Position numbers and translations under genes: made by a program. A DNA stretch of 20,107 nucleotides from a virus: positions 1 to 20,107 of IMG/VR virus record IMGVR_UViG_3300038424_000044. The stretch is one strand, 5' to 3'. Below are positions 5,065-15,983 of the stretch, piece by piece; position 1 is the first letter of the stretch, and every line of letters starts with the position of its first letter. The notes under the pieces are model-generated. The model was given only the letters and a program-made list of their open reading frames with translations. It was not told the origin of the DNA and ran no database searches.

Positions 5065-5331
5065 ATGGCTAATTACGGGTACAACAATGGAGGTTACGGC
5101 GAAGGCGGGTACAATTTTTTCATGATTGGCGAGCCTGCTGTTGTCGTTGCGGTCAGTGTTGCCAGGACAATCTCCCAGACCATGACGGCCACACGTTTGA
5201 TCCAAGCGATAGCCGTATGCTCCAAACAGGCTGACTTAAATCAGATCATGCCGTTTGCTCGCCTACTCAGGGCAACAGTCATCTGCGCCAAGCAAACAAC
5301 CACCTTAATGAACTCCGGTTCGACACCGTAA
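5065..5331 (+). CDS. Small Gly/Tyr-rich N-terminus protein, unknown
   Basis: I do not recognise a named family for this 88-aa protein. It opens with a glycine-tyrosine-asparagine-rich stretch (NYGYNNGGYGEGGYNFF, residues 3-19), similar in style to short proteins found beside phage fibre genes. Then comes a mixed helical region with two related segments, ARTISQTMTATRLIQAIAVCSKQ and ARLLRATVICAKQTTTL, given here in their parts, suggesting an internal duplication. The start is supported by AGGGG eight bases upstream. The next gene follows after 19 bases, so it is part of the fibre group inserted between the chaperones and the tape measure. Confidence 0.55.
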   Translation: MANYGYNNGGYGEGGYNFFMIGEPAVVVAVSVARTISQTMTATRLIQAIAVCSKQADLNQIMPFARLLRATVICAKQTTTLMNSGSTP

Positions 5332-5350
5332 GCAAACAAGAGGCAGAAAT

Positions 5351-5662
5351 ATGTCAGTCCAAACAGTCGTCTGCGGAGACACCGCAACTACTATATCAGT
5401 CACCTGTACCAATGTGGACGGGTCGGTCATTGACTTGACCGGCGCCAGCGCGACGATTGAGTGGGTTATCAACGGCGGTGCGCTTGTGTCAAAAACGATG
5501 TCTATTCCAGCGCCGAAAACCGGCGTATGTTGCTACACTTTCGCTACGGGTGATCTCGCAACAGCGGGCCAGTTGCTCTACCGAGTGATAATCACATTTG
5601 CTGGCGGCGCAATTCTCACCACTCCTCAGAGTGGCTGCCTCAATATCATAGCGGTTCTTTAA
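5351..5662 (+). CDS. BppU N-terminal-like (Ig-like) baseplate/fibre accessory protein
   Basis: This 103-aa all-beta protein matches the short phage domain related to the N-terminus of baseplate upper protein BppU. It has DTATTISVTCTNVDGSVIDL (residues 10-29), TGASATIEWVINGGA, SKTMSI, then VCCYTFATGDLATAGQLLYR and VIITFAGGAILTTPQSG. The usual pattern 'dtaptitvtlkdadGspvdLtGasv.f ... G.v.Y.wt.gDl.tpG.y...~v.f.dG...t.P' is followed closely. In relatives this domain hooks fibres to the tail, which suits the fibre gene just upstream. Cys residues at 8, 19, 56 and 57 and near the end are more than usual for this fold. Confidence 0.6.
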   Translation: MSVQTVVCGDTATTISVTCTNVDGSVIDLTGASATIEWVINGGALVSKTMSIPAPKTGVCCYTFATGDLATAGQLLYRVIITFAGGAILTTPQSGCLNIIAVL

Positions 5663-5676
5663 GCTAGGTATAAATA

Positions 5677-6108
5677 ATGAGCGACGATATTGTTACCCTA
5701 GATGGGCTGGAAGAAATTGAACAGAAATTGAAAGCCTTAGGCCCTAAGCTGGCAACCAAAGCCCTGAAAGACGCGCTGATGGCGGGCGGTGAAGTGTTTC
5801 AAGCCGCGATAGAAGCCCGCGCGCCATACGGCCCACACTGGTTTAAGTTCACACACGAGGTAGTCTACGGAGCTCTACGGCAAAGCATCGATATCAAGAC
5901 TGAAATGATGGTCTTGGAAGATGGTGGAATGGTGCGGGTAGGGCCTGATCGCAGAGTTTTCTGGGCCAAGTTTGCTGAGTTCGGCACCTGCCGTGAGGCG
6001 GCGGTTCCTTTTATCAGACCAGCCTTTGAAGAAAGTAAGATGGCCGCGCTCGAAGCGTTTTGTAACACGATGGCAGATCACCTGCCAGACACAGTAAGGG
6101 GTTTGTAA
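5677..6108 (+). CDS. HK97 gp10-family phage protein
   Basis: This 143-aa protein shows the HK97 gp10 pattern: an N-terminal helix (GLEEIEQKLKALGPKLATKAL), a second helix with GGEVFQAAIEARAPY, a strand containing SIDIKT, the core segment VGPDRRVFWAKFAEFGT, then PFIRPAFEESKMAALEAF. The family has a role in head-tail joining or tail completion. In most siphoviruses the gene lies between head closure and DUF3168; here it is placed directly before the tape measure gene, with its stop overlapping the next ATG by one base (TAATG). Nothing in the sequence shows damage. Family identity is strong; its working place in this virion is uncertain because of the moved position. Confidence 0.8.
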   Translation: MSDDIVTLDGLEEIEQKLKALGPKLATKALKDALMAGGEVFQAAIEARAPYGPHWFKFTHEVVYGALRQSIDIKTEMMVLEDGGMVRVGPDRRVFWAKFAEFGTCREAAVPFIRPAFEESKMAALEAFCNTMADHLPDTVRGL

Positions 6109-8447
6109 TGTCAACAACTACTGATATAGGCGCAATCTCTGTATCGTTGCGTGCTGGTGGTGTGGCCAGTTTTTCTTCAGACATCGACAAAGCCTTTGCC
6201 AAGGCCAAAGACTCAGCCAAAGACTTCAAGTCCGCGATGCAGAGAGAAGTCAAAGAATCCAACGCTTCACTGGCATTGCTGGGCGAAGAGTTGGGTGTCC
6301 GTCTGCCGCGACACCTGCGTGGCTTCGTCAGCCAACTGCCCGGCGTTAGCAAGGCTATGTCCGCCGCGTTCGCTGGCGTTGCTGTCATTGCTATTGCCGA
6401 AGTGCTGGTCAAGGCTGCTGAGAAAGCATACGAACTAGCCAAAGCATTTGACATATCGGGTGAGGCTGCTAAAAAGAACGCTGACGCGTGGAAAACGTTG
6501 CAGACTAGCCAACTCAGGTCAAATGAACAAATTGAGTTAACCAATGCCAAGTTGGATGTTGAAATTGCCAAGTTGGAGCATAAACCCGTCAACAACTTAA
6601 AAGTTGCCCTGCTGGAAGCACAAATTGCCGCAGGGTCTCTTTATGAGAAATTACACAAAGCCAATCTTGAATCTATCAAGTTGCTGAAAGACAGCCAACC
6701 TAACTGGTTCATACGTTTACTTAGTGGCGGAGCCGCACAGACCAACACTGGAGTCACCGACATCTTAGAGGGGGCTAATAGTGCCACCGTTGGTGGGCAT
6801 GATGTAGGCATGCCAAAACAAGACCCATTAAAAGAGCAGCGTAACAACATTGATGTTACGATCACACGTCTCAAGACGTTACAACAGTCATGGAAGGATG
6901 CGAATCAGGCGGCTATCACATCACCCTCCGCTGGATCACCCGTCTACTCCGAAAGCCAATTAGACGCTCTCCAACAGGAAATATATCAAAAACAGGCGCA
7001 GCGGCGTGGTATTGACGATGAGATAGCGAATTCTGAAAAGCGAGCCACGGTTAATTCTCAGACCGCACTCAACGAAAACAGATCGGCGTTGGAGAAACTG
7101 GCGGAACAGTATCGGGAATTCCGTCTCGCAATGGCGGCGGCTGTAGACAAAATGTCTATCAAGCCAGAATCTAATGACTTCGTAGCCAAGGCAAGGGAAC
7201 TTCAGGCGAAAGCAACCGCTGAAATTAACAAAGCGTTTGAGAAGGAAGCAGAAAATCTGAATAAGGTTCATGCTTCCACCGCACAAGTTACCGCCGACCG
7301 TGAAAAAGCAATTGCCTCCGTCAACCGCATGACGGACGCTTTGATCCAACACAATGCACAACTGGCAATAGAAGAAACACACGCCTCTATCCTTAAACTA
7401 GCGGGCATTGAAACCACACCCAAGCAAGACACCCGAGCGGAGATGGCTGTTGGTATTTCCAACATCATTAATCCAAATTTCGTGCCAGCGATGCCAAAAC
7501 TGGTTGGCACTACACAAGAGCAGGAAATAGCGAAGTTCAATAACAACCTAAAAGAGCAGGCAGCGTTGCTGTCTAAGGTTGACGTAGCGGTTCTCACCAC
7601 GCAGGAAAAACTTAATGTCTACGCCGCTGAGTTACAAAGTCTTGGTAACAAGGGTGAAATTAGTTGGGAGCAGCAGACAAAGGCGTTGCAAGTCTACGCC
7701 GAAGAGTTGGAGAAGACCGAAAAACGGCACATGAACTCCGTTAGCGGGTTCTTCAACACCTTCGTTGACCAGTCACGGCAGTATGGCAAAGAAGCCGCAC
7801 AAACACTTGACCAAGCGTTTAGCGGGTTCAACGACAACCTAACCAAGATGCTGTTAGGTCAGAAGACCAGTTGGAAGTCGCTCTTCGATAGTCTTGCTGG
7901 CAGCACGATGAAGATAGGTTTGAAAGGTATTGAGGGGAACCTAATATCCAAAATCCCCGGTATGGGTGGGTTGAAGATGCCGCAAATGATTCAGGCATCA
8001 ACTGTCACGGTTACCGCTGCTTCTGTCAACGTCGGCGGTGGGCCAACTGGTGGTAGTGGCGCAGGTGGTTTAGCTGGTCTATTTGGGGATGGTGGTGCTG
8101 GTGGAGGATTAACGTCTGGTTTTAGCAGCATTGGAGACTTTGGTGCTGCCGCAGGTGGCGGAGACATTGACCCATATGGTATGACGCTGGTTGGCGAGAA
8201 AGGTCCCGAGCTTTTGACGGGTATGGCTGGTCATGTCCACAGCAACGCCGACACAAAGAAGATGTTGGGCGGTGGAGATACGCACAACTACAACTACACG
8301 ATTGACGCCCGTGACACCAATCCTGCGGACACTGAAATGCGGGTCAGAAAAGCCATAAAAGAATCACACATGACAGCGGTTCAGCAATCGTTAAGCGCGC
8401 ATAAGGAAATGCAGTCGCGCCGTCCAGCTAGTTCGTCCGGAAGGTAA
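6108..8447 (+). CDS. Tail tape measure protein
   Basis: This 779-aa protein is the longest candidate for the tail length ruler, which lies inside the tube and leaves with the DNA. It is helical throughout, with heptad-rich stretches at about residues 20-75 and 300-560 and one hydrophobic segment at about 84-103 (SAAFAGVAVIAIAEVLVKAA). The C-terminal region is typical: glycine-rich linkers at about 650-690, GMTLVGEKGPELLTG (a hallmark of tape measure C-termini), and the NYNYTIDARDTNPADTEMR-type strand and helix. The length-to-tail rule of about 0.15 nm per residue would give a tail near 115-120 nm. It starts one base inside the previous stop and ends two bases before the next gene. Confidence 0.9.
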   Translation: MSTTTDIGAISVSLRAGGVASFSSDIDKAFAKAKDSAKDFKSAMQREVKESNASLALLGEELGVRLPRHLRGFVSQLPGVSKAMSAAFAGVAVIAIAEVLVKAAEKAYELAKAFDISGEAAKKNADAWKTLQTSQLRSNEQIELTNAKLDVEIAKLEHKPVNNLKVALLEAQIAAGSLYEKLHKANLESIKLLKDSQPNWFIRLLSGGAAQTNTGVTDILEGANSATVGGHDVGMPKQDPLKEQRNNIDVTITRLKTLQQSWKDANQAAITSPSAGSPVYSESQLDALQQEIYQKQAQRRGIDDEIANSEKRATVNSQTALNENRSALEKLAEQYREFRLAMAAAVDKMSIKPESNDFVAKARELQAKATAEINKAFEKEAENLNKVHASTAQVTADREKAIASVNRMTDALIQHNAQLAIEETHASILKLAGIETTPKQDTRAEMAVGISNIINPNFVPAMPKLVGTTQEQEIAKFNNNLKEQAALLSKVDVAVLTTQEKLNVYAAELQSLGNKGEISWEQQTKALQVYAEELEKTEKRHMNSVSGFFNTFVDQSRQYGKEAAQTLDQAFSGFNDNLTKMLLGQKTSWKSLFDSLAGSTMKIGLKGIEGNLISKIPGMGGLKMPQMIQASTVTVTAASVNVGGGPTGGSGAGGLAGLFGDGGAGGGLTSGFSSIGDFGAAAGGGDIDPYGMTLVGEKGPELLTGMAGHVHSNADTKKMLGGGDTHNYNYTIDARDTNPADTEMRVRKAIKESHMTAVQQSLSAHKEMQSRRPASSSGR

Positions 8448-8734: not shown

Positions 8735-10438
8735 ATGAGTTGGGTAAACATCACAGGCACTAAAATTCAAGATGCATCAGGAAATTTGCTGGCACACGGG
8801 GAGATCAGCTTCCAGCCGACAGACGGAAAAGGCAACCCTATTCCCGCACTGGCGGCATCAGGCGGTCTCATGATTGAGGCTTCCTCGGCAGCGATCACGA
8901 CTGGCGTTATCGACAGCGGATACCATGTGTCGCCGTCCTCCACCTCTGCCCCAACCAATCTCAATTACACCGTCACGATTACGGACACGACCACTGGAAC
9001 CAATGTAGTCTTGGTAAACGTGGTTGTGCCCGATGGTGGTATCAACTTTGATGCTTGGGACCCGAGTATGAACTTGCCAGCCATTCCACAAGTGCTGGTG
9101 TCTCCCGTAGTAGGAACTTCACCCTTGCCTTCGGGTACAACGGCAACGACTAATGGGGTTGACGATAACACCGCCAAAGTGGCGACTGATGCTTTTGTGC
9201 TTGCCCAAGCGGCTTCGGCTAATCCATTAGTGGACGGAAGTGTGAGTGCGGGCACAAGCACACGATTTGCAAGAGCAGACCACGTTCACCCGATAATTTC
9301 AGCCTCGGCCCTGACCACAGGCAACCTGCCAATCGCCCAGATACCAACTGGCGGAAGTTCTACCACCTTTCTGCGTGGTGATAATGCGTGGGGGACGCCA
9401 TCTGGTGCGGGTAATGTCACGGGTCCGGGTAGCTCGGTAACTGGTGACTATGCCGTCTTCAGCAACACTACAGGTGAAGTGCTCGCCGACGGTGGTCAGC
9501 CCACCATGCGCAACCGCATCATCAACGGAGATATGCGGATTAACCAGAGAAATTCTGGTGCTTCACAGACGATTACGGCTGGTGCAGCTCTCGCTTATAC
9601 GGTAGATCGCTTCTATGCTTACTGCACGGGGGCGAATGTCACGGGACAACAGGTTGCGGGCAGCGCATCTTCACAGTATCGCTATCAGTTCACTGGCGCA
9701 GCAAGTGTTACAGCCATTGGATTCGCTACCAGACTAGAAGCGAACAACACTTACGATCTTAACAACACTTCAGCGATATTTTCAGTAGACTTAGCAAATT
9801 CCCTGTTAACCTCAGTGACGTGGAAAGCATATTACGCAACCACTGCTGACACATTCGGCACGCTGGCATCACCAACGAAAACGCAGATTGCCACAGGAAC
9901 GTTCACGGTATCAAGTGCGCTCGCTAGGTACAGCGCCAGCATCAACGTCCCGTCTGCCGCAACGACGGGCATTGAAGTAGTGTTCAGCGTGGGTGCGCAG
10001 ACCTCTGGCACCTGGACTATAGGCAACGTCCAGCTTGAAGCTGGCACCGTCGCCACTCCGTTTGAGCGCCGTCCTTATGGGTTGGAGTTGATGTTGTGCA
10101 AGCGTTACTTACCCTTGTGGACAGGGACAGGAGCCGACGATAGCTTGGGCTCGGGCCAAGCAGCTTCGGGAGGGCAAGCCTTTGTCGATTTCATATTCGA
10201 TGTTGTTCCCAGAGTCCCCCCAACAGGAGTTGCGACTACAACGCTAAGCACTTTGTCTCTTTGGAATGCCGCCGCCGGCGACGTGGCTGTCACAGGCTTG
10301 GGAATACATATAGCAGGATATCGCAGTGTGTCGCTCCAAGTGTTGGTCACGAGTGGCTTGGTTGCTGGCAATGCCACCAAGCTTGTGCAGGCAGGATCAA
10401 CACCGGCACAGATTTACTTTACCGGGTGTGAACTGTGA
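8735..10438 (+). CDS. Large tail fibre / receptor-binding protein
   Basis: This 567-aa protein has a modular fibre layout. Residues 1-108 form a beta domain shared with the preceding small protein. Residues about 163-186 (NPLVDGSVSAGTSTRFARAD, then HVHP) and 196-221 (GNLPIAQIPTGGSSTTFLRG, then DNAWGT) are shaft motifs widespread in phage fibres. From 258 on comes the tip: NRIINGDMRINQRNSG opens a carbohydrate-binding-like jelly roll, ending with IGNVQLEAGTVATPFERRPY (429-448) and ELMLCKRYLPLW, a signature of fibre C-termini in many proteobacterial phages. A further 100 residues follow that end. It has a ribosome site GAGG six bases before the ATG. It probably contacts a surface glycan; the ligand is unknown. 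Confidence 0.82.
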   Translation: MSWVNITGTKIQDASGNLLAHGEISFQPTDGKGNPIPALAASGGLMIEASSAAITTGVIDSGYHVSPSSTSAPTNLNYTVTITDTTTGTNVVLVNVVVPDGGINFDAWDPSMNLPAIPQVLVSPVVGTSPLPSGTTATTNGVDDNTAKVATDAFVLAQAASANPLVDGSVSAGTSTRFARADHVHPIISASALTTGNLPIAQIPTGGSSTTFLRGDNAWGTPSGAGNVTGPGSSVTGDYAVFSNTTGEVLADGGQPTMRNRIINGDMRINQRNSGASQTITAGAALAYTVDRFYAYCTGANVTGQQVAGSASSQYRYQFTGAASVTAIGFATRLEANNTYDLNNTSAIFSVDLANSLLTSVTWKAYYATTADTFGTLASPTKTQIATGTFTVSSALARYSASINVPSAATTGIEVVFSVGAQTSGTWTIGNVQLEAGTVATPFERRPYGLELMLCKRYLPLWTGTGADDSLGSGQAASGGQAFVDFIFDVVPRVPPTGVATTTLSTLSLWNAAAGDVAVTGLGIHIAGYRSVSLQVLVTSGLVAGNATKLVQAGSTPAQIYFTGCEL

Positions 10439-12071: not shown

Positions 12072-14720
12072 GTGGCGAAAATAGCAATTGGGATGGCCCT
12101 TGTAGTGGGTACGGCGGTGGCGATGGAAGTGCCCGGAGTAAATGCTCTACTTCCGTCTATGCTTGCACATATGCTTCCGGCGATACTATCCATGGGGGGA
12201 GCCATGGTATTGTCTGGCATCGCGGATGAGCTGCGTGGCGGGCCCAGCAACTCGATGAGTGTGCGCTTACCTGCTGCGCCGCGCCAGACCATATACGGTC
12301 AGTGCCGGGTGTCAGGGTCTGTAGTGTATGAAAGTTGTTTGGGAAACCAACACCACCTGAATCAGATCATAGCGTGGGCAAGCCATCCTTGCTATTCAAT
12401 AGACAGTATCTATCTCGACGGTCGTCAATCAGATGTTCCCTTGCCTTCAGTCGGCACACCACAAGCAGGCGGACAAGACAGTGGTGGATCACGCACTGAT
12501 GACTGTGGAAATAGTTATAACTTTGGCGACAATCTTTGGATTTACTCAACCATTGGTAGTCCAGAAGGTTATTGGTTTCCACAACTGAGTGGTAGTTTGG
12601 GCAGTGACTATCACTGGGATAACACCTGCACGCTGAATAATATCTGTGCGTCTTACGTTAACTGTGGTTACAACTCTGGTGTGTATAGTGGTCCACCGGG
12701 CGTCAAGGCAACCATCCACGGTAAATATGATATCTACGACCCACGAACAGAGACTTATGGCTGGACGCAGAATGCTGCCTTGATTATCGCCGACGTTCTT
12801 TGTAACAAAGATTATGGGTTGGGATGCGATTATGCAACCGAGATAGATGAGGCACAATTAATTGCTGCCGCGAACCTATGCGATGAACAAGTCACTATTG
12901 CTGCTACTTATCAGTCGCCGCAAACATGGCGGTCTGGTTATGCGTATCAACTTGGAAATACAATCATCGATAGTAATGGATATTTACAAACTTGTATTGG
13001 TCAGAGCGGTGCTGATGTTCCTCCCACCAGCGGTGGATCACACCCCACTTGGAATGATGCCACGTCTGCAATCACATATGACCACGAGATCAATTGGCAG
13101 TGTGATGGTTACGCTGGTGTCAGTCCACCGACAACAGAATCAAGATACACCATCAACGGTTTCTTTGATTGGTCCCGAACTCCCGGTGACATTCTGGACG
13201 GAATGTTAATGTCTTGTGAAGGCAGGTTGACATACTCGGGCGGAGTCTGGAAGATTTTCCCGGCTGCGTGGTATGGGACGGGTTTGGAGTTCGATGAGAG
13301 TATGCTTACGGGGTCTATCAAATGGAGCCCGAAGAGAAAATATCGCGACTTAGTCAACGCCGTTAGAGGAACATTCATTTCCCCGGTCTATCCCTATGCC
13401 GTCGTGGGGTTTAACCAGGATCAAAAAGACCCCAACATTTTTTCCGGGGAATGGCAACCTGCTGATTTCCCAGAGTATGCACAAGACGCGTTGCATGGCT
13501 ATGCGTCAGACACTAACTTGGCGCAAGATGGAGGATACAAGCTGCATGTTGACCGGCGCTACCCATATGTTACAAGCGTTTCTACGGTGCAGCGGCTCGC
13601 AAAAATCTTCTTAATGCGTAATCGTCAGCAAGGTACAGGCACGCTGACGATGAATCTTGCTGCGTATCAAGCTCAACCGTCAGATGTGTTCCAGATGACC
13701 TCTGCGATCATGGGGTGGGATCACAAAAACCTGGAAGTGCAGAGTTTACGATTTATCCCATCTATTCCTGAAGATGAGAAGACAGGCCCGTCTTTGTCGG
13801 TGGAAATGGATGTATGCGAGAGTGATCCTTCGGTTTATTCATGGAGTGCGGTTGAGGAAATGGGAGTGGAGGACACTATCAGTCCCGTGGCATTGGATAG
13901 TCTTCAAGTGGATGCCCCCACCGGCCTGACGCTTACTTCAGGCTACAGCACGGCTGTAATCGGCGTTGATGGTGTGCTCACACCCCGGATACTGGCAACA
14001 TGGACGGAACCCGACGACCCGTTTATTACGACAGGCGGCTCCATTATTGTGCAGATGCAACAGGTGGGTGGTGCATGGTCAACCGTCGCTACCGTCAGCG
14101 GCACAACTGTGCAACTTTACATACCGGGTGTCGTGTGCGGGCAACAATACAATGTGTCTGTCGTGGCGGTTAGGTCTAACGGTGCTTACTCTGCTACAGA
14201 AGTGGTAGGCCCACTAACGGTGAGCACGACTTATAGCACAATAAATAGCAACGGCATACTGTCCAATATTCCCAGAAACACGACCAACAACCTGACATTG
14301 GACAGCGTAACGGCTACCACTTCAGTCACTGTGCGGCTCTATGGGCCGGGCGGTGTTGGGACGAGCGGAACCGTCTATCAGGGTTCAGATATTGAATACT
14401 CGCCAATAGGCCCGTGCACATGGACGGGGATGTTGCCAAACACTGGATATTATTGCTACTACAACCCACAAACCACACTCTTCTATCTTGTCACCAACGC
14501 TACAACGGCGGTAGATGATTTTTATATTCCGATTGGATCATTGTTGACGTGTAATTTGGCCGGCACTGGCGGCGTTATCGGTGGCGGAACAGGCGGCGGA
14601 ATTGGTGCTACGATGCCTTGTTATGCATCAGTATCTGGTGACAGTGGTGGCACTGACGGTGGTGGCGATGCCCCCAGTGGTGGTGACGCAGGTGGGAGCG
14701 GTGGCGGTGGCGGTGAATAA
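12072..14720 (+). CDS. Tail tip attachment protein, gpJ-like
   Basis: This 882-aa protein starts with GTG one base after the previous stop. Two hydrophobic stretches (residues 4-18, 33-50) are followed by RQTIYGQCRVSGSVVYESC (71-89), typical of the start of gpJ-like tip proteins. The Phage-tail_3-like core with SRTPGDILDGMLMSCEGRLT (368-387) and a DHKNLEVQSLRF-type strand follow. Residues about 286-350 are an inserted module (W-x-SGYAYQLGN, DSNGYLQTC, PTWND, INWQCDG) common in phage and bacterial surface proteins. Residues 613-720 resemble a fibronectin type III domain. Residues 831-882 are a glycine-rich tail. Thirteen cysteines lie between 78 and 382, unusual for a tail protein. It is the likely central fibre for host adsorption. 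Confidence 0.82.
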   Translation: MAKIAIGMALVVGTAVAMEVPGVNALLPSMLAHMLPAILSMGGAMVLSGIADELRGGPSNSMSVRLPAAPRQTIYGQCRVSGSVVYESCLGNQHHLNQIIAWASHPCYSIDSIYLDGRQSDVPLPSVGTPQAGGQDSGGSRTDDCGNSYNFGDNLWIYSTIGSPEGYWFPQLSGSLGSDYHWDNTCTLNNICASYVNCGYNSGVYSGPPGVKATIHGKYDIYDPRTETYGWTQNAALIIADVLCNKDYGLGCDYATEIDEAQLIAAANLCDEQVTIAATYQSPQTWRSGYAYQLGNTIIDSNGYLQTCIGQSGADVPPTSGGSHPTWNDATSAITYDHEINWQCDGYAGVSPPTTESRYTINGFFDWSRTPGDILDGMLMSCEGRLTYSGGVWKIFPAAWYGTGLEFDESMLTGSIKWSPKRKYRDLVNAVRGTFISPVYPYAVVGFNQDQKDPNIFSGEWQPADFPEYAQDALHGYASDTNLAQDGGYKLHVDRRYPYVTSVSTVQRLAKIFLMRNRQQGTGTLTMNLAAYQAQPSDVFQMTSAIMGWDHKNLEVQSLRFIPSIPEDEKTGPSLSVEMDVCESDPSVYSWSAVEEMGVEDTISPVALDSLQVDAPTGLTLTSGYSTAVIGVDGVLTPRILATWTEPDDPFITTGGSIIVQMQQVGGAWSTVATVSGTTVQLYIPGVVCGQQYNVSVVAVRSNGAYSATEVVGPLTVSTTYSTINSNGILSNIPRNTTNNLTLDSVTATTSVTVRLYGPGGVGTSGTVYQGSDIEYSPIGPCTWTGMLPNTGYYCYYNPQTTLFYLVTNATTAVDDFYIPIGSLLTCNLAGTGGVIGGGTGGGIGATMPCYASVSGDSGGTDGGGDAPSGGDAGGSGGGGGE

Positions 14721-15331
14721 TGCTGACTGACATTCAGTATCAGCAGTTGTGGCGATGGGGACAAACCTACATCGACACCCGTTGTATCGAGCGCCGCGAC
14801 AAGGGAAATGAGTTGCCAGGCTTGATTGAAGGAACCAAATACCGCTGGCAAATACTTCCCCGTCGCGGACTTTACGACCCCGAGTTTCTGAAAGTGGTGG
14901 TAGCAATGTTCGAATATCGGATATCTAAAGATATAGGACACACTAATTTTCAAATGGCTGGCGTAGAGTCCGCTGCCGTACCATTACTGATTGGCGCCTC
15001 ATTGATGTTGGGGATCCCAAGCTTTAGCGTCCGAAAAGAGCGGAAAACCTATGGTTTGTTGAACTGGATTGAAGGAACACCGAAACCGGGTGTTCAGGTG
15101 ATGTTGGTGGACGACCTTTGCAACTCACGACGGTCGCTGCGGCACGCATACGACATCTGTTTGGAGCATGGACTGCCGATCTTTAATTACGCATTCGTGC
15201 TAATGAACAAAGTAAACAAGGCAATACATAGCGAGGAAAGACGTAGGACGGATATGTATCTCCCGCCAACGATCAACGTAATATATTTGTATGACCTTGA
15301 TGATTTTAAACTGTCCAACCCAAGTCATTAG
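14720..15331 (+). CDS. Orotate phosphoribosyltransferase-like protein with altered PRPP loop
   Basis: This 203-aa protein follows the type I phosphoribosyltransferase fold in the PyrE order. AGVESAAVPLLIGASLMLG (80-98) corresponds to the hood-adjacent helix. RKERKTYG (105-112) lines up with the RKExKxHG active-site loop of PyrE, keeping Arg105, Lys106 and Lys109 but changing the His to Tyr111. VMLVDD (127-132) is the strand and acidic pair of the PRPP motif. The phosphate loop after it, usually T-x-G-T/G-x, reads CNSRRSL (134-140) and lacks the glycine. The C-terminal strand NVIYLYDLDDF matches the PyrE end. Its ATG overlaps the gpJ-like stop by one base. It may bind a nucleotide or PRPP in an altered way, or be non-catalytic. 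A role in virion structure is unlikely. Confidence 0.75.
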   Translation: MLTDIQYQQLWRWGQTYIDTRCIERRDKGNELPGLIEGTKYRWQILPRRGLYDPEFLKVVVAMFEYRISKDIGHTNFQMAGVESAAVPLLIGASLMLGIPSFSVRKERKTYGLLNWIEGTPKPGVQVMLVDDLCNSRRSLRHAYDICLEHGLPIFNYAFVLMNKVNKAIHSEERRRTDMYLPPTINVIYLYDLDDFKLSNPSH

Positions 15332-15340
15332 GAGTTAACC

Positions 15341-15721
15341 ATGGCTGTTCATATTGTAAAAACCGAATTGTTAATCAACGAGAAACGGGAGCGTATTGTG
15401 TTGATGGACGATTTCGGCAGTTCTCACGATATTTTTGTTCCTGTTTTACTTGGTTCTACGCGGCAGCAAGTCATCCAAGACCATGTCACATTAATGGAAA
15501 ACCACCAAGCGGCGATGGAGACTTACGCCAAAGACAATGGACACGATATTTCTGCTCAAAAGGTCGCAGGAACTGCAAGAAAGCAAAAACTGATCGAGCA
15601 AAACAAACCGCAACCTTTTGTTCCAACGCCTGCGCCCACGCCAATAACTCCAGCTCCCGTCGCTGTCGAGAACCCGGCCCCAGCATCTACACAACCATTA
15701 AGAGGTAGCACCAATGCCTGA
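15341..15721 (+). CDS. Unknown protein with proline/alanine-rich C-terminus
   Basis: This 126-aa protein has a clear ribosome site (AGGAG, seven bases before ATG). Residues 1-40 form a beta-rich start (IVKTELLINEKRERIVLMDD), residues 45-90 a helix with many charged residues, and residues 92-120 a Pro/Ala/Thr-rich linker (PTPAPTPITPAPVAVENPAP). I do not recognise a family. The layout resembles small cytoplasmic or virion-linked proteins with a flexible tail. It overlaps the next gene by eight bases, so it belongs to the same operon as the membrane protein cluster downstream. Confidence 0.6.
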   Translation: MAVHIVKTELLINEKRERIVLMDDFGSSHDIFVPVLLGSTRQQVIQDHVTLMENHQAAMETYAKDNGHDISAQKVAGTARKQKLIEQNKPQPFVPTPAPTPITPAPVAVENPAPASTQPLRGSTNA

Positions 15722-15983
15722 TCTGGAAAGTAAGTCCCCTAAGTGGGTTGACAAGGTGGTTGTGTGGTTCGTCATCGGTATCCTTTCGCTGTTCATCACT
15801 GTAGCGGTTGTCCAGACAAAGGTCGGGGCCGTGGAAAATCGACAAGCAGTGGATGAACAAGATCGGAGACAGAATTTGAATGAGATGGTCACTCATCAAC
15901 AATTTGACCAGTTCGAAAAAGACTTGTACCTGCGCTTAGATCGCATGGAAAAATCCATCGACAGACTTAGTCCCAAGCGCTAA
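15714..15983 (+). CDS. Membrane protein with one TM helix and coiled coil (holin/XhlA-like candidate)
   Basis: This 89-aa protein has one membrane helix at about residues 15-34 (VVVWFVIGILSLFITVAVVQ), preceded by a basic cytoplasmic stretch. A heptad-patterned coiled coil runs from about 36 to 86 (e.g. DQFEKDLYLRLDRMEKSIDRL). The TM-then-coil order fits inner-membrane spanins or haemolysin XhlA-like lysis helpers. Start ATG lies inside the end of the previous gene; the stop overlaps an ATG (TAATG), but the next gene probably starts further on. The lysis role is inferred from position behind the tail genes. Confidence 0.6.
   Translation: MPDLESKSPKWVDKVVVWFVIGILSLFITVAVVQTKVGAVENRQAVDEQDRRQNLNEMVTHQQFDQFEKDLYLRLDRMEKSIDRLSPKR

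Follow-up and report, generated by a model that had tools for sequence, protein, structure and literature searches.

Cyanophages are known to carry pyrE as an auxiliary metabolic gene (PMC5083919, PMC9983427). The product of cyanophage P-SSM2 (PSSM2_043) is, like the protein described here, a phage-borne PyrE-class enzyme, and differs from it in having a canonical EDVTTTGGS loop, in scoring 129.7 bits (over the cut-off) and in grouping with cellular PyrE. Departures from the canonical loop occur in bacteria: the OPRT of B. cenocepacia (PDB 4ohc) reads EDLTTDSRSK at the phosphate loop, without Gly. The window analyzed here is a virus record of 20,107 bases, possibly a fragment. It contains an open frame of 203 codons for a phage protein of OPRT fold and PyrE lineage, in which the phosphate loop is conserved and non-canonical. 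On balance, we favor the reading that the product of this gene is a PyrE-type nucleotide enzyme that is active and has a loop specific to phages. The features on which the comparison draws are as follows.

12072–14720, plus strand: gpJ-like tail protein with a Gly-rich C-terminal tail (...GGDAGGSGGGGGE), matching phrog_5616 (1.8e-65) and phrog_31, central tail fibre J (7.1e-25).
14720–15331, plus strand: PyrE-like type I phosphoribosyltransferase (PRTase), 203 aa, from sequence, profile, PDB and predicted-fold matches.
14837–14875, plus strand: hood region, residues 40–52, KYRWQILPRRGLY, from sequence and family alignments.
14960–14989, plus strand: pyrophosphate-loop region GVESAAVPLL, residues 81–90, from alignments.
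15032–15055, plus strand: catalytic loop RKERKTYG, residues 105–112, with Lys106, Lys109 and Tyr111, from alignments.
15098–15136, plus strand: PRPP motif VMLVDDLCNSRRS, residues 127–139, with the acidic pair D131 D132 and the Gly-less loop N135–S139, from alignments.

The stop codon of the gpJ-like frame (TAA, 14718–14720) and the start codon of the PRTase (ATG, from 14720) overlap as TAATG, confirming the direct overlap described in the initial annotation. Elsewhere in the window, an ORF at the left end (41–721) resembles a GIY-YIG endonuclease by eye, and a small membrane protein at 15714–15983, which may be holin-like, weakly matches phrog_1625 (bacteriocin production or immunity, 0.00097).

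The proposed identity as a PyrE-like type I PRTase was upheld by profile, sequence and structure comparisons. The protein matched the NCBIfam models NF001729 (E 2.4e-10) and TIGR00336 pyrE (E 1.8e-9), weakly matched Pfam PF00156 (0.028), and matched the PDB sequences of B. cenocepacia OPRT 4ohc (E 2.9e-7) and human OPRT (5.5e-7); the relation to PyrE is far above chance. An AlphaFold2 model built from an alignment of 42 relatives (mean pLDDT 96.0, pTM 0.91) was compared with known PRTase structures, a check that had been suggested at the outset, and OPRT came out on top in both programs used. OPRT chains ranked first in Foldseek (4ohc, 3.3e-12), and VIA-align aligned M. tuberculosis OPRT with a Z of 20.0 and an rmsd of 2.0 over 165 residues. 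In the first 21 rows from Foldseek and the first 12 from VIA-align, every entry was OPRT, UMP synthase or the unnamed PRTase 2p1z, and Z values to OPRT, APRT and PurR chains ranged from 14 to 20 over 156–190 residues, as expected of a PRTase fold. The best viral-structure match, at 36% identity, came from an uncultured phage and is annotated as PyrE. On the predicted model the OPRT fold is settled, and the claim of function stands apart from it. The TIGR00336 equivalog cut-off was missed (37.6 versus 106.8 bits), and all family members tested fall far below it (phage relatives, 26–48 bits), which counts against an active PyrE. Because both this cut-off and the classical loop signature failed, the protein was not filed as a strict PyrE.

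The motifs reported initially, RKERKTYG, the strand VMLVDD (residues 127–132) with its acidic pair and the Gly-less CNSRRSL, were all found in the protein. As in OPRT, the catalytic loop contains both Lys residues and an aromatic residue before Gly (K106, K109, Y111 and G112). Tyr111 had been regarded as an anomalous replacement of the active-site His; Tyr is ordinary at this position, being present in human UMPS (RKETKDYG), Leishmania UMPS (RREAKIYG) and P-SSM2 PyrE (KGYG), and B. cenocepacia OPRT has Phe. A His-to-Tyr change was thus rejected as a departure from active enzymes. In the pyrophosphate loop, Glu83 is invariant across the 16 nearest relatives; the two classical PyrE have Thr here, and NF001729-type OPRT also has Glu (GGET). 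The hood aligns with the SGxxSxxYxxxRK stretch of OPRT and reads YTWxFYLRRGL in relatives; the window copy is altered, with WQILPRR instead of WMFYLRR, a sequence difference that may weigh against activity. In the loop DDLCNSRRS the third position of the 5′-phosphate loop is Arg137 rather than Gly, so the classical PRPP signature is absent.

Relatives were recovered by a viral scan with the conserved core (residues 71–150), which gave six members first; the set then grew to about 80 loci. When 50,697 phage records were searched at the protein level with the window PRTase, and with that of one relative (L002), no match came up, and neither a first viral scan using poorly conserved PRTase peptides nor a gpJ-based scan found anything. 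The nearest relatives are 64% (L008), 55% (L045, whose Geobacter MAG contig also carries tail genes) and 52% (L002) identical and form a clade with the window PRTase (support 100/100), each member lying beside virion or tail genes. A scan with these four as query yielded no new member, so the tail clade stays at four.

After sequences were collapsed at 90% identity, none of the 47 Gly-less-type sequences from phages or prophages had Gly at the third loop position. Gly occupied it in all nine ‘B’ copies of tandem pairs, in all five CPR or other bacterial members and in both classical PyrE of the set. The 16 nearest sequences all have N135, S136 and S139; loop types across the family include NSSxS, NSKxT, NSTNS, GSQxT and a one-residue-longer SxxHKTA. 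A subfamily with this longer phosphate loop, DD(L/F/V)(T/I)S(T/P/D)xHKTA, comprises L042 and L090–L103. Among the 47 Gly-less members, Lys109 is present in all, Tyr111 in 46 and the D131/D132 pair in all except the L036/L039 ‘A’ copies; Lys164, found where other OPRTs have the ‘DR’ Arg, does not vary among the nearest sequences (16/16). Ratios of dN/dS were 0.045–0.224 in pairs of relatives close enough to compare, values that cover relatives only, the window copy having no relative near enough for the comparison. The phage family and a CPR sister group form their own clade in the tree (100/100), separate from the NF001729/Burkholderia-type group.

These data bear on whether the gene is a degenerate host pyrE acquired by a phage, as the missing third-position Gly and the changed hood of the window copy could suggest. 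All 47 phage relatives of this type lack the same Gly; this uniformity and the low dN/dS in relatives mean that the loop is a maintained family trait. The frame is open in the window copy, and family and sister group have their own clade. Decay was rejected for the family, and as an explanation it is hardly credible. The description ‘PRPP loop lost’ is accurate in that the loop has no Gly and misleading in the word ‘lost’, since Gly-less is the family norm.

In CPR bacteria, a related PRTase with the loop INTGGS is fused to a PQQ-type beta-propeller (L050, 413–4239; L051, 333–4147; L052, 4193–9551; also L047 and L048). The L052 fusion has a YcaO gene (4.5e-43) and a nitroreductase/SagB-like gene (7.4e-15) as neighbors, and the L050 and L051 fusions have genes of similar appearance next to them; these loci look like an undescribed peptide-modifying cluster.

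The absence of Gly was next weighed against chromosomal enzymes. A pattern search of 398 Pseudomonadota genomes found the TTDSRS loop in three (G344, G346 and G271), labeled Burkholderia-type because their protein is nearly identical to 4ohc; the loop of a fourth match is TTDGRSK. In G344 and G346 the TTDSRS OPRT is the only pyrE-class match (other matches, 25–27 bits), while G271 has a second. From this sole-copy status we infer that the Burkholderia-type TTDSRS OPRT is functional. Other members of the NF001729 group read TDGGS, TDGRS and, once, TDCKS; among individual chromosomal OPRTs collected, Ser (TTDSRS; L284, L285 and L287) or Cys (STDCKS; L267) replaces the loop Gly. Since Gly-less chromosomal OPRTs exist, a missing Gly alone does not imply another ligand or lost PRPP binding, and the earlier deduction from the loop of a different ligand, a decoy or a regulator found no support. 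The phage family is separate from the Burkholderia-type group in the tree, so Gly was replaced independently; this independence, and the difference in sequence between NSxxS and TDSRS, may also be held against an active phage enzyme.

Genomic context adds to the case for metabolism. PRTase genes lie between nrdA and nrdB in L010 and L014, and in L018 and L011 as assigned by sequence; in L017 the gene lies between a UvsX-like recombinase and a DnaB-like helicase, in L021 beside an exonuclease and in L035 near a clamp-loader gene, and other members are in tail or other virion modules. The spread of contexts, RNR operons above all, points to nucleotide metabolism. Tail-gene proximity was rejected as the defining context in view of the RNR, recombinase, exonuclease and clamp-loader neighbors. 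The ‘tail operon’ placement proposed initially stands insofar as tail or virion adjacency accompanies the Gly-less loop in related phages, at least four of them (window, L002, L008 and L045); the family also occurs in several other settings, among them RNR operons.

We favor an active enzyme because of the OPRT fold, the PyrE lineage and the PyrE-annotated viral-structure match; because Lys109, Tyr111, D131/D132 and Lys164 are conserved and relatives show purifying selection; because relatives sit between nrdA and nrdB; and because chromosomal Gly-less OPRT loops exist, including the solved 4ohc. The protein would most likely form the usual OPRT dimer. The acidic pair D131/D132 would hold the ribose of PRPP or of the nucleotide product, Lys106 and Lys109 of the mobile loop would hold pyrophosphate, and the hydroxyl- and amide-rich N135-S136-x-x-S139 would replace T-x-G-x-S on the 5′-phosphate. 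Phosphoribose would then be transferred to a pyrimidine-type base, probably orotate, and the benefit to the phage may be a raised or redirected UMP/dNTP supply during infection. Against this reading, the one host genome bin for a close relative (G021, for L045) already encodes a separate, normal PyrE (129.3 bits, over the cut-off).

Part of the family may be non-catalytic. Ten loci (L006, L027, L028, L035–L040 and L043) contain a tandem pair of one Gly-less (A) and one Gly-loop (B) copy, for example at 9138–10453 in L006 and 7486–9020 in L043. The A copies read CNSTNS or similar and the B copies INSGSS or similar (IGSGKT in L043); in one group (L036, L039 and L040) the A copy is without the acidic pair (GEM), which suggests a prozyme–enzyme arrangement in those phages. 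By extension, the window protein could be a non-catalytic PRTase-fold ligand binder, either a regulator like PurR or PyrR or a prozyme that would form a mixed dimer with an active phage or host PyrE and lend its mobile loop to the partner's active site. The title of PDB entry 1oro assigns the E. coli OPRT loop to the neighbor's active site, and inactive PRTase paralogs have precedents in yeast and Trypanosoma, although in T. brucei a mixed APRT dimer with activity was not observed (PMC8836349). Window-clade members keep the DD pair, Lys109 and the loop Tyr and are single copy in the records examined, which are fragments, such that a partner copy may lie elsewhere. A non-catalytic partner or regulator is an unlikely reading, less likely than an active PyrE-type PRTase.

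A different lead comes from the neighboring genes. The gene just upstream of the PRTase ends Gly-rich in the window, L002, L008, L045, L031, L042, L092–L094 and L102, and the downstream neighbor carries a Gly/Asp-rich stretch in L229, L231, L237 and L242–L244. The Gly-rich regions adjoining the PRTase in the tail clade are:

Window, 14600–14720.
L002, 8660–9779.
L008, 7900–8017.
L045, 7900–8004.

These stretches are long and Gly/Asp-rich (GGGDGGGDGGG) and occur, before or after the PRTase, on otherwise unrelated virion-module proteins, among them gpJ-like proteins and the tail protein phrog_376. A Gly-rich C-terminal end was found in 12 of the 1,359 ORFs of at least 120 codons in the loci collected at that stage; ten of the 12 lie directly upstream of a PRTase, with one locus counted twice and L092–L094 near-identical, and an eleventh lies one gene further upstream in L002. 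Among loci selected purely for PRTase homology, immediate neighbors on both sides were Gly-rich in 14/96 cases versus 5/512 for the other genes (p 1.5e-8, an optimistic value because loci within one clade are not independent). A reverse scan by Gly-rich DNA pattern alone reached three further PRTase loci (L134, L161 and L175) among 80 examined, and four gpJ relatives in phage records have neither a Gly-rich tail nor a PRTase. The PRTase could thus be a virion-linked enzyme that acts on, or travels with, the adjoining Gly-rich virion protein. RNR-, recombinase- and exonuclease-linked members are without a Gly-rich neighbor, however, and the same pattern would arise if the genes simply shared a late operon or if repeat DNA served as an insertion site; we know of no chemistry that connects a PRTase with a Gly-rich virion protein. 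Virion linkage is improbable in our estimate. So, to the same degree, is the joint reading of a PyrE-superfamily phage branch with NSxxS, often as a mixed Gly-less/Gly-loop pair, that would be functionally tied to a Gly-rich virion protein in several unrelated modules and would act on or ride the particle rather than serve ordinary pyrimidine synthesis. At L163 (3316–4373), a small GNAT-like ORF overlaps the stop of a preceding gene for a Gly-rich protein, a layout matching that of the PRTase (GNAT unconfirmed by Pfam), and the L031 PRTase (5087–6277) has a C-terminal extension of ~160 aa that is GNAT-like by eye, in which Pfam finds nothing.

A counter-defense or toxin–antitoxin role, in which the protein would mimic or oppose a PRTase-fold or nucleotide-depleting host defense, was also considered. 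Faint matches appeared in distant relatives, of L161 to PsyrT (1.4e-4), of the L006 A copy to ShosT (0.0093) and of the L006 B copy to Pfam PRTase-CE (0.022), and may reflect only the common PRTase fold. PADLOC returned no match for the window PRTase up to E 1, including to the defense PRTases of PsyrTA/ShosTA, and none for the tail-clade sisters L008 and L045, and RNR-operon placement fits metabolism better. The suggested action against a nucleotide-based host defense is left unsupported, and we regard it as very unlikely.

Among the papers searched, nothing turned up on a phage Gly-less PyrE-like family or its Gly-rich linkage; the present analysis defines this family, which annotation pipelines miss (Pfam below cut-off) or label PyrE. 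Two branches, the phage family and a chromosomal OPRT, have independently replaced the textbook Gly of the PRPP loop. If the phage proteins are active, this Gly is dispensable; if inactive, they form a clean set of natural PRTase prozymes. RNR-operon linkage, tandem pairs and Gly-rich virion neighbors offer testable leads on how phages use PRTases.

Compared with known systems, the family is closest to OPRT (PyrE; TIGR00336 and NF001729; PDB 4ohc, 5hki and 2wns), which it resembles in fold, hood, RKExKx(Y/H)G loop, acidic pair and overall length; it differs in its Gly-less NSxxS 5′-phosphate loop, sub-cut-off scores and own clade, and in a pyrophosphate-loop Glu that it has in common with NF001729 types. 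PurR and PsyrT/ShosT have extra domains; these regulators and toxins share the type I PRTase fold, and faint profile matches in some relatives, whereas the window PRTase has neither their extra domains nor a PsyrT/ShosT match. The Burkholderia-type OPRT (4ohc and 9e5g; G344, G346 and G271), the best PDB match by sequence and by Foldseek, shares the Gly-less loop and the GGET motif, and is set apart by being chromosomal, by T-D-S-R-S rather than N-S-x-x-S, by Phe for the mobile-loop Tyr and by its place in the NF001729 clade.
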